This document shows, in pieces, positions 35,116 through 52,355 of a stretch of DNA of 57,829 nucleotides. The translations under genes and the position numbers were made by a program. The stretch is from Candidatus Woesearchaeota archaeon (GTDB lineage Archaea; Nanobdellota; Nanobdellia; Woesearchaeales; UBA10216): the NCBI GenBank assembly GCA_002688315.1, contig NZCN01000012.1:1-57829 (forward strand), in the 5' to 3' direction. Below the pieces are notes generated by a model. The model did no database searches and had not been told where the DNA came from. It saw only the letters and a program-made list of their open reading frames with translations. How positions within the stretch are numbered: the first letter of the stretch is position 1; every line of letters begins with the position of its first letter.

Positions 35116-35276
35116 ATTTTTCTGAAAATATTTCAAACATCTTGAAAATCCTTTCTAAGCTTTATAAACCAATTGAAAGATTTCCGAAATAGTTGTAGGT
35201 ATTTTCAATTTCTCCGGAAATCTTGCGGATTTTTATGGTTAAAACATATTAATAATTAAAATATAAAAGAAAACGT

Positions 35277-35391
35277 GCCGGCCTTGGCTAATCAGGTTTG
35301 CCGCCAAGTTAAGACCTTGGTGTCCTAGTAGGATTTCGGAGTTCAAATACTTTTCGGTTTTACCGTTAGGTTGGATATCCCCGGGCCGGCG
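35277..35391 (+). tRNA. Class II tRNA-like RNA, copy 1; nominal anticodon AAG, G73, ~30-nt insertion in T-loop
   Basis: Acceptor GCCGGCC/GGCCGGC; D-arm GGC..GCC; anticodon arm CCAAG-TTAAGAC-CTTGG; variable arm TCCT/AGGA; T-arm CGGAG-TTCAAAT...[insert]...CCCCG (one A-C mismatch). Confidence 0.65.
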
Positions 35392-43248: not shown

Positions 43249-43347
43249 GCGGGGGTAGCAAAGTCTGGTCAAATGCGCAGGACTTAAGTCTTGTAAAAGA
43301 TATCCTGTCACTTAGTGTGTTCAGGAGTTCGAATCTCCTCCCCCGCA
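43249..43347 (+). tRNA. tRNA-Leu(TAA) with 13-nt intron at 43289-43301 (anticodon loop 37/38)
   Basis: GCGGGGG/CCCCCGC, A73, CAGGA-CTTAAG[intron]A-TCCTG, class II variable arm, intact T-loop TTCGAAT. Confidence 0.93.
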
Positions 43348-50232: not shown

Positions 50233-50345
50233 CGCCGGGACTGGGACTTCCAAACTTGTTTTTGAACCCAGAAGGCGTAAAGCCATCGGTTCCCTTGTAA
50301 TGTTCAGTTCAAGACCGACGCACTACCAGGTTATGCGATCCCGGC
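50233..50345 (-). tRNA. tRNA-Ser(TGA) with two introns: anticodon loop (16 nt, 50292-50307) and T-loop (about 14 nt, 50247-50260)
   Basis: GCCGGGA/TCCCGGC, G73; TCGGT-CTTGAA[CTGAACATTACAAGGG]A-ACCGA with BHB-like CTTG/CAAG helix; class II variable arm; CTGGG-TTCAAA[insert]T-CCCAG. Confidence 0.88.
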
Positions 50346-52039: not shown

Positions 52040-52241
52040 TCTTATCTTAAAGAAACTTGCTTTAATAAATATGGCTGCAAAAAAACAAAGAAATTTTCGG
52101 TAATGCTGAAAATCTTCTGGAGAGTTTAAAAAGCCGTTGAAAATCTTTCAACTTTCTTGTTAGAATTTTCAACTTCTCTGAAAATCTTGCGGGTTTTTCT
52201 GGCTAAAGCATATTAAGAATGAAAATAATAAAAGAAAACGT

Positions 52242-52355
52242 GCCGGCCTTGGCCAATAGGTATGGCCGCTGGTTTAAGAACCCAGTGTCTGAAAAGACTT
52301 CGGGGTTCAAAAACTTTTTGGTTTTTCCGTTTGGTGGGAATTCCCCGGGCCGGCG
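52242..52355 (+). tRNA. Class II tRNA-like RNA, copy 2; nominal anticodon AAG, G73, ~30-nt insertion in T-loop
   Basis: GCCGGCC/GGCCGGC; GGCC..GGCC; CTGG(T)-TTAAGAA-(C)CCAG; variable arm GTCT-GAAA-AGAC; CGGGG-TTCAAA[insert]T-CCCCG; stems covary relative to copy 1. Confidence 0.68.

Follow-up and report, generated by a model that had tools for sequence, protein, structure and literature searches.

The serine-type tRNAs known as allo-tRNAs were reportedly described by Mukai, Soll and colleagues in 2017. Some of them have been shown to insert serine at non-serine codons in E. coli (PMC7609411). The nev-tRNAs of nematodes mature in vivo, and mistranslation by them went undetected (PMC4300185). 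Introns at position 59/60 are known from archaea other than the one studied here (PMC4090602). We analyse copy 1, a gene at positions 35277-35391 (+) of contig NZCN01000012.1 from a Candidatus Woesearchaeota archaeon (assembly GCA_002688315.1); the whole stretch of 57,829 nucleotides is referred to as the window. The initial annotation of this locus called a class II tRNA with AAG in the anticodon loop, G73 and a serine-like acceptor, all of which are present, and it saw a conflict between anticodon and body, which is genuine and turns out to be a property of a whole family.

Judged from sequence comparison, that family is a multi-copy Woesearchaeal one, probably derived from tRNA-Ser and conserved across the order. 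We favour, at slightly under an even chance, the reading that copy 1 would be a functional intron-containing, serine-accepting gene resembling allo-tRNAs, which would read hydrophobic codons under tight control.

Fold and intron of copy 1

Copy 1 is a complete and collinear gene with 7/5 acceptor/T stems. Its parts are the following.

35277-35391, +: copy 1 pre-tRNA, class II, anticodon AAG, G73 (covariance-model match R1 at 128 bits, homologues, covariation)
35245-35252, +: TATA-like box of copy 1, CATATTAA (seen in the sequence and when the copies are aligned)
35277-35283 with 35384-35390, +: acceptor stem GCCGGCC/GGCCGGC
35286-35302, +: D-arm, GGC/GCC, with A14 and G18G19
35304-35320, +: anticodon arm, stem CCAAG/CTTGG
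35309-35315, +: anticodon loop TTAAGAC (U33, A34 A35 G36, A37, C38)
35321-35336, +: long variable arm (V-arm), lacking the UUAGUG tip that tRNA-Leu genes of this genome have
35337-35341 with 35379-35383, +: T-stem CGGAG/CCCCG, one A-C mismatch
35342-35347, +: T-loop TTCAAA, with U60 at 35378
35348-35377, +: predicted 30-nt intron at 59/60 (pairing and compensatory change over 82 genes)
35391, +: discriminator G73

The drawn cloverleaf with its intron was tested on eight aligned copies, in three of which a second insert had been removed before alignment, so that the test does not extend to that insert. Over these sequences the structure is 94% paired, and less than 50% when it is slid; two-sided changes occur at 9 pairs against 4.1 expected, and none of 500 shuffles reaches the observed values. 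A simple alternative fold with a standard anticodon and A73, which the initial annotation had left open, was looked for by inspection and rejected; with a leucine UAA anticodon the anticodon stem loses its end pairs, and G73 remains. Copy 1 has no Rfam match to tRNA-Sec, nor the 9/4 stems and UCA anticodon of that tRNA.

Removal of the insert restores a normal T-loop, TTCAAAT, in copy 1. To follow it more widely we used an odd set of 82 genes from 31 genomes of the order. Each was chosen because it is class II, has G73 and a 59/60 intron, and carries an anticodon other than those for serine; since G73 was a criterion of choice, it is not an independent result in this set, whereas A35 is. TTCAAA or TTCGAA is found in 76 of the 82 genes, and the D-loop GG in 79. 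T-loop positions 54-57 (UUCA) pair with UGGA or UGAA near the 3' end of the insert (UGGA in copy 1) to make the central helix of a bulge-helix-bulge (BHB) motif, with bulges AA^N and NN^U60 at the splice sites (AA^U and UA^U60 in copy 1) and an inner stem with an internal loop. All four central pairs are present in 71/82 genes (31 genomes), with a compensatory change at position 57 (A57-U in 68, G57-C in 9) and U60 in 80, and sliding the partner strand by 1-3 bases loses the helix. The initial annotation had the T-loop insert of about 30 nt right as to its presence; as to its nature, the pairing identifies it as an archaeal BHB intron at 59/60, and its splicing is strongly implied; the T-loop cannot form until the intron is removed. 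Same-site introns occur in ordinary tRNAs of this genome, namely Ser(UGA), Ser(CGA), Ser(GGA) and two tRNA-Arg, so that splicing at 59/60 would be routine there.

Two observations concern the introns themselves. One of the two tRNA-Arg genes (L035 and L037) has a long hairpin intron with a perfect UUCG/CGAA BHB. In three genes of relatives, L161 and L162 (G002) and L004 (G006), the first 59/60 intron is followed by a further insert, some 50 nt long; it forms two hairpins, each capped AUC-NNN-GAU, and its exit does not fit a BHB.

Copy 1 was missed by ARAGORN, which called one tRNA in the window, and by Rfam, which called two, presumably because of the insert; Rfam at relaxed thresholds gives only chance-level matches at this locus. 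Both programs miss the odd genes, and the tRNA sets of Woesearchaeal genomes may be incomplete for this reason. As for the 11-bp acceptor helix proposed earlier, it can be drawn in copy 1 (extension ACGT/GCGT), but as a family hallmark it is weakly supported: three consecutive extra pairs occur in 32 of 79 family genes against 16.7 in shuffled rows, and -1/73 pairing is seen in true tRNA-Ser genes too. At best, this helix would be a feature of the pre-tRNA.

The family, its amino acid and its anticodons

A DNA search for homologues of copy 1 covered 39 relatives and its own genome, G000, which has 15 contigs and is 99.7% complete. It finds three copies in G000 (C12:35277, C12:52242, C1:52293), the homologues there being 78-84% identical to copy 1, and others in G002, G004 and G006, which together show that copy 1 is not a chance product. 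With a fourth, more distant member (L070), G000 has at least four. At E 0.01, a covariance model built from loops mostly with A35 has matches in 184 of the order's 292 genomes, which is not a count of the family because ordinary Ser, Leu and other 59/60-intron tRNAs are among the weaker ones. In a sample of the phylum every match at E 1e-10 falls within the order, and the contigs of a public genome collection in which the family motif occurs are titled Candidatus Woesearchaeota or Nanoarchaeia metagenome-assembled genomes. The covariance search that the initial annotation proposed thus finds conserved relatives, and its suggestion of a decaying copy is contradicted by the covariation together with this order-wide conservation; neither the loss of stems nor the loss of conservation that marks a pseudogene is seen. 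Ordinary serine genes (GGA, UGA, CGA, GCU) are found beside the odd ones among the sorted matches.

The body of these RNAs is serine-like, with G73, a GCC..GGC acceptor and a V-arm resembling that of true serine tRNAs. The leucine-type V-arm tip UUAGUG, present in the leucine genes L021, L027, L028 and L029, is in 0/82 odd genes. Copy 1 has neither the A73 and V-arm tip of a tRNA-Leu nor, with its AAG, the NGA or GCU anticodon of a tRNA-Ser. In H. volcanii, leucine identity depends on A73 and a specific V-loop sequence, G73 being an anti-determinant for leucyl-tRNA synthetase (LeuRS; PMC9976931). The anticodon plays no part in serine identity (PMC9976931). Since G73 and a non-leucine V-arm should exclude LeuRS, and seryl-tRNA synthetase (SerRS) ignores the anticodon, charging with serine is likely. 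SerRS, searched by its N-terminal domain, gives one hit each in seven of eight genomes, G000 included, and none in the incomplete eighth; a dedicated second SerRS was considered and rejected on the single hit per genome in those seven.

Eighty odd genes have a seven-base anticodon loop, and in 78 of them position 35 is A, corresponding to codons NUN, the exceptions being GCC and ACG. Apart from two, the anticodons belong to Leu, Phe, Ile or Val codons, and no CAU (Met) member was found in the set. The model also retrieved ordinary serine tRNAs with G35, at 34-57 bits, and other anticodons should therefore have been seen. Position 33 is U in 70 loops and C in 10; position 34 is G in 49, A in 15, C in 15 and U in one. 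A34 is unusual in archaea. Here, among loops with A35, it occurs in 14/42 members for four-codon boxes (G36/C36) and 0/36 for split boxes (p 5.5e-5; 12/33 against 0/24 with each anticodon counted once per genome, p 6e-4), whereas G34 occurs in 34/36 split-box and 14/42 four-codon members (p 1.9e-8). The p values over all genes overstate the evidence, because the genes are related and the counts phylogenetically non-independent. The box pattern points to genuine codon reading. CUU, the codon of AAG, is common in the window (28.5 per thousand codons).

Anticodons also change at orthologous loci, recognised by homologous neighbours: L057 has GAU, L060 and L062 AAG, and L068 CAG; L059 has CAG where L107 has AAG, and L042 CAG where L063 has GAC. 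N34 and N36 vary in these switches and A35 is retained. The second window copy and its ortholog L161 both have AAG.

Several of these facts weigh against serine being read into hydrophobic codons. Besides the overstated p values, the wobble pattern at split boxes would be easier to understand in tRNAs charged with the amino acid that the codon encodes; C33 in place of U33 in 10/80 loops and the presence of A34 point to weak decoding; the anticodons turn over at orthologous loci; one G000 copy has an 8-nt anticodon loop; and serine insertion at Leu, Phe, Ile or Val codons should be toxic. An alternative is that the genes are isoacceptors charged according to their anticodons (Leu, Phe, Ile, Val) despite the serine-like body. 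Such charging would account for an anticodon set that is hydrophobic NUN bar two, lacks Met and respects split boxes in its wobble, and Val and Phe tRNAs have A35 among their identity elements (PMC9976931, table). We nevertheless consider it improbable, given that the Phe and Val tRNAs tabulated there have A73, that G73 blocks archaeal LeuRS (PMC9976931), that the V-arm is long, and that ordinary isoacceptors are already in the genome: Phe(GAA), Ile(GAU), Leu(GAG, CAG, UAG, UAA) and Ser genes all coexist in G000, so the odd genes are extra.

Two genes with longer anticodon loops are otherwise intact: L040:1501-1622 with 8 bases (TCTGAAAC) and L053:1501-1624 with 9 (ATTCACACC).

The upstream copy of the anticodon region

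About half of the odd genes (group B) are preceded by an element that we call half', consisting of an upstream GC hairpin and a copy of the anticodon region, with the loop usually 43-59 nt before G1 and a second TATA-like box 10-20 nt before G1. The carriers are as follows.

G000:C15:33287-33395, -: L070
1723-1833: L053
other carriers: L057, L059-L068, L091-L096, L100-L102, L106, L107, L109

The copies in the window are group A and have no half'; what they share upstream is a stretch by the TATA box, which before that of copy 1 lies at about 35202-35244 and is similar in all three group A copies of the genome. Upstream at about -75 to -35, close to the TATA box, 26/42 group A genes have a TTN(N)CG-type motif, against 3/24 ordinary serine genes; it may be a shared operator.

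For 33/82 odd genes the upstream region holds a match of at least 10 bases to an 11-mer around the anticodon loop; the same test gives 0.6% when other odd genes of the same genome are used and 0/27 for ordinary Ser/Leu genes. Over positions 31-40 half' and gene have an identity of 0.90-1.00, which drops at 41-43 to 0.51, 0.28 and 0.15, with 0.97 at N34 against 0.35 shuffled; as loci entered this profile through the match around the loop, its level is partly selected, a selection that touches neither the flanking drop nor the comparison against other genes. Where orthologous loci differ in anticodon, half' has switched along with the gene. For a half' that tracks each anticodon change seen, we found no described mechanism in the open literature. 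Antisense copies of the anticodon region are found upstream in 0/82 genes and downstream in 2/82. No half' has a 3' partner, and a canonical BHB splicing half' to the intron was rejected on inspection, the register being unfit. In group B, the 5' strand of the anticodon stem together with the loop shows complementarity to the T-loop and intron start of the same gene (0/5000 permutations; 46/5000 when permuted within genomes); group A shows no anticodon-intron complementarity. Half' and the anticodon arm may compete for the T-loop and intron, so controlling folding or splicing.

These properties bear on whether the RNAs decode at all. A tRNA-shaped regulatory or structural RNA, with an anticodon loop that serves as a pairing element for the control of folding or splicing, is a possibility that we take seriously, at clearly less than an even chance. 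It would fit the near-identity of half' to its own gene over bases 31-40, the group B complementarity, the frequent C33 and A34 and the anticodon turnover at fixed loci. It fits less well with group A, which lacks both half' and complementarity and yet has A35 too, with the box-specific use of A34 and G34, which pairing to the T-loop leaves unexplained, and with G18G19 and TTC, retained as in working tRNAs. The multiple dispersed copies, some stem mismatches (the A-C in the T-stem of copy 1 among them) and the resemblance of half' to a target-site duplication of about 10 bp could instead suggest tRNA copies in decay, or what is left of mobile elements with tRNA genes as their targets. We regard this as very improbable: changes are compensatory, the BHB is intact in 71/82 genes, the genes are retained at orthologous loci beside diverged proteins, and half' switches with its gene as no decaying duplication would.

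On our favoured reading of a serine-accepting tRNA, copy 1 would be transcribed from its own TATA promoter, its ends processed and its T-loop intron then removed by the archaeal splicing endonuclease. After CCA addition, the mature RNA would be charged with serine by SerRS and would read CUU/CUN in a limited or conditional way, as other members would read UUY, AUY, CUN and GUN, the outcome being serine at hydrophobic codons or a role as a dedicated Ser-tRNA. Use in translation appears the weakest step of this chain. Expression is probably low or conditional, because a product at high level would be harmful, and the intron would be a likely gate, joined in half of the family by the matching half' upstream. 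A stronger form, which we consider rather doubtful, is that Woesearchaea maintain a fast-changing set of serine-charged tRNAs for hydrophobic codons in which, for half of the genes, the half' anticodon is kept identical, a programmed, self-regulated recoding or mistranslation; the identity of the two anticodon copies through each switch would then reflect an active mechanism or a strict functional need.

Other genes of the genome, and known systems

Besides copy 1, the window contains the following.

52242-52355, +: second window copy, class II, loop TTAAGAA (AAG), G73, 30-nt 59/60 intron
52209-52216, +: TATA-like box of the second window copy
50233-50345, -: reference tRNA-Ser(UGA), canonical 37/38 intron plus short 59/60 intron
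43249-43347, +: reference tRNA-Leu(UAA), A73, V-arm tip CTTAGTG

The tRNA-Ser(UGA), with its two introns, also went uncalled by ARAGORN and in the window-wide Rfam scan. No conserved neighbour protein was found, the flanking genes varying from copy to copy. We considered a 5' untranslated region element of the downstream gene, as a start codon lies directly 3' of the 52242 copy, of L040 and of L043, and rejected it; the gene after copy 1 is convergent, and the arrangement is therefore not general. Elsewhere in G000, L026 (C15:9843-9929, +) is class II with G73 and anticodon UAU (A35), without a T-loop intron and with a different body, and its upstream stretch resembles that of the window copies. 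L032 (C2:101140-101230, -) is class II with G73, anticodon UAA, a 59/60 intron and a perfect UUCA/UGAA motif, and is accompanied in the genome by an ordinary A73 tRNA-Leu(UAA). Odd tRNAs form tandem arrays at L069 (G131:C38), which includes UAG and CAA members with longer V-arms, and at L095 and L054 (G100:C9).

We found no earlier description of such Woesearchaeota/DPANN tRNAs, by anticodons or introns, in open-access papers, subscription papers and preprints being outside the scope. If the family is serine-charged, a large archaeal lineage would have several code-contradicting tRNAs per genome, and natural mistranslation would be testable beyond bacteria and fungi; if it is unused in translation, it would be a new class of tRNA-shaped RNA in DPANN archaea.

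To our knowledge, non-canonical BHB introns elsewhere in archaea sit in ordinary isoacceptors. The family has in common with those genes a 59/60 intron with a bulge-helix-bulge (PMC4090602), which is here fixed in a non-cognate family. Split and permuted archaeal tRNAs (PMC3218864) likewise involve tRNA pieces and BHB processing; that assignment was rejected for copy 1, whose gene is whole and whose halves are neither separate nor reversed. Nematode nev-tRNAs (PMC4300185) are also V-arm tRNAs that are conserved and would violate the code once charged, but they are eukaryotic and leucine-charged with Gly and Ile anticodons, and they are a caution that maturation of RNAs of this kind need not bring mistranslation that can be measured. 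The yeast tRNA-Ser(CAG) of CUG-reassigned clades (PMC5951914) is likewise a serine tRNA with a leucine-codon anticodon and A35; there one codon is truly reassigned, whereas in Woesearchaea ordinary Leu/Phe/Ile tRNAs remain and many codons are covered. Allo-tRNAs (PMC7609411) combine many non-serine anticodons with the serine identity to which the Woesearchaeal sequences also point, but they come from bacteria, their acceptor/T stems are 8/4 or 9/3 and their anticodons cover 35 codons, whereas the Woesearchaeal family is archaeal, with 7/5 stems, which set it apart from allo-tRNAs, a BHB intron, nearly all N-A-N anticodons and a half' in half of its members. By analogy, the bacterial allo-tRNAs and the yeast tRNA-Ser(CAG) are the systems that the Woesearchaeal family would most resemble in the way it works.
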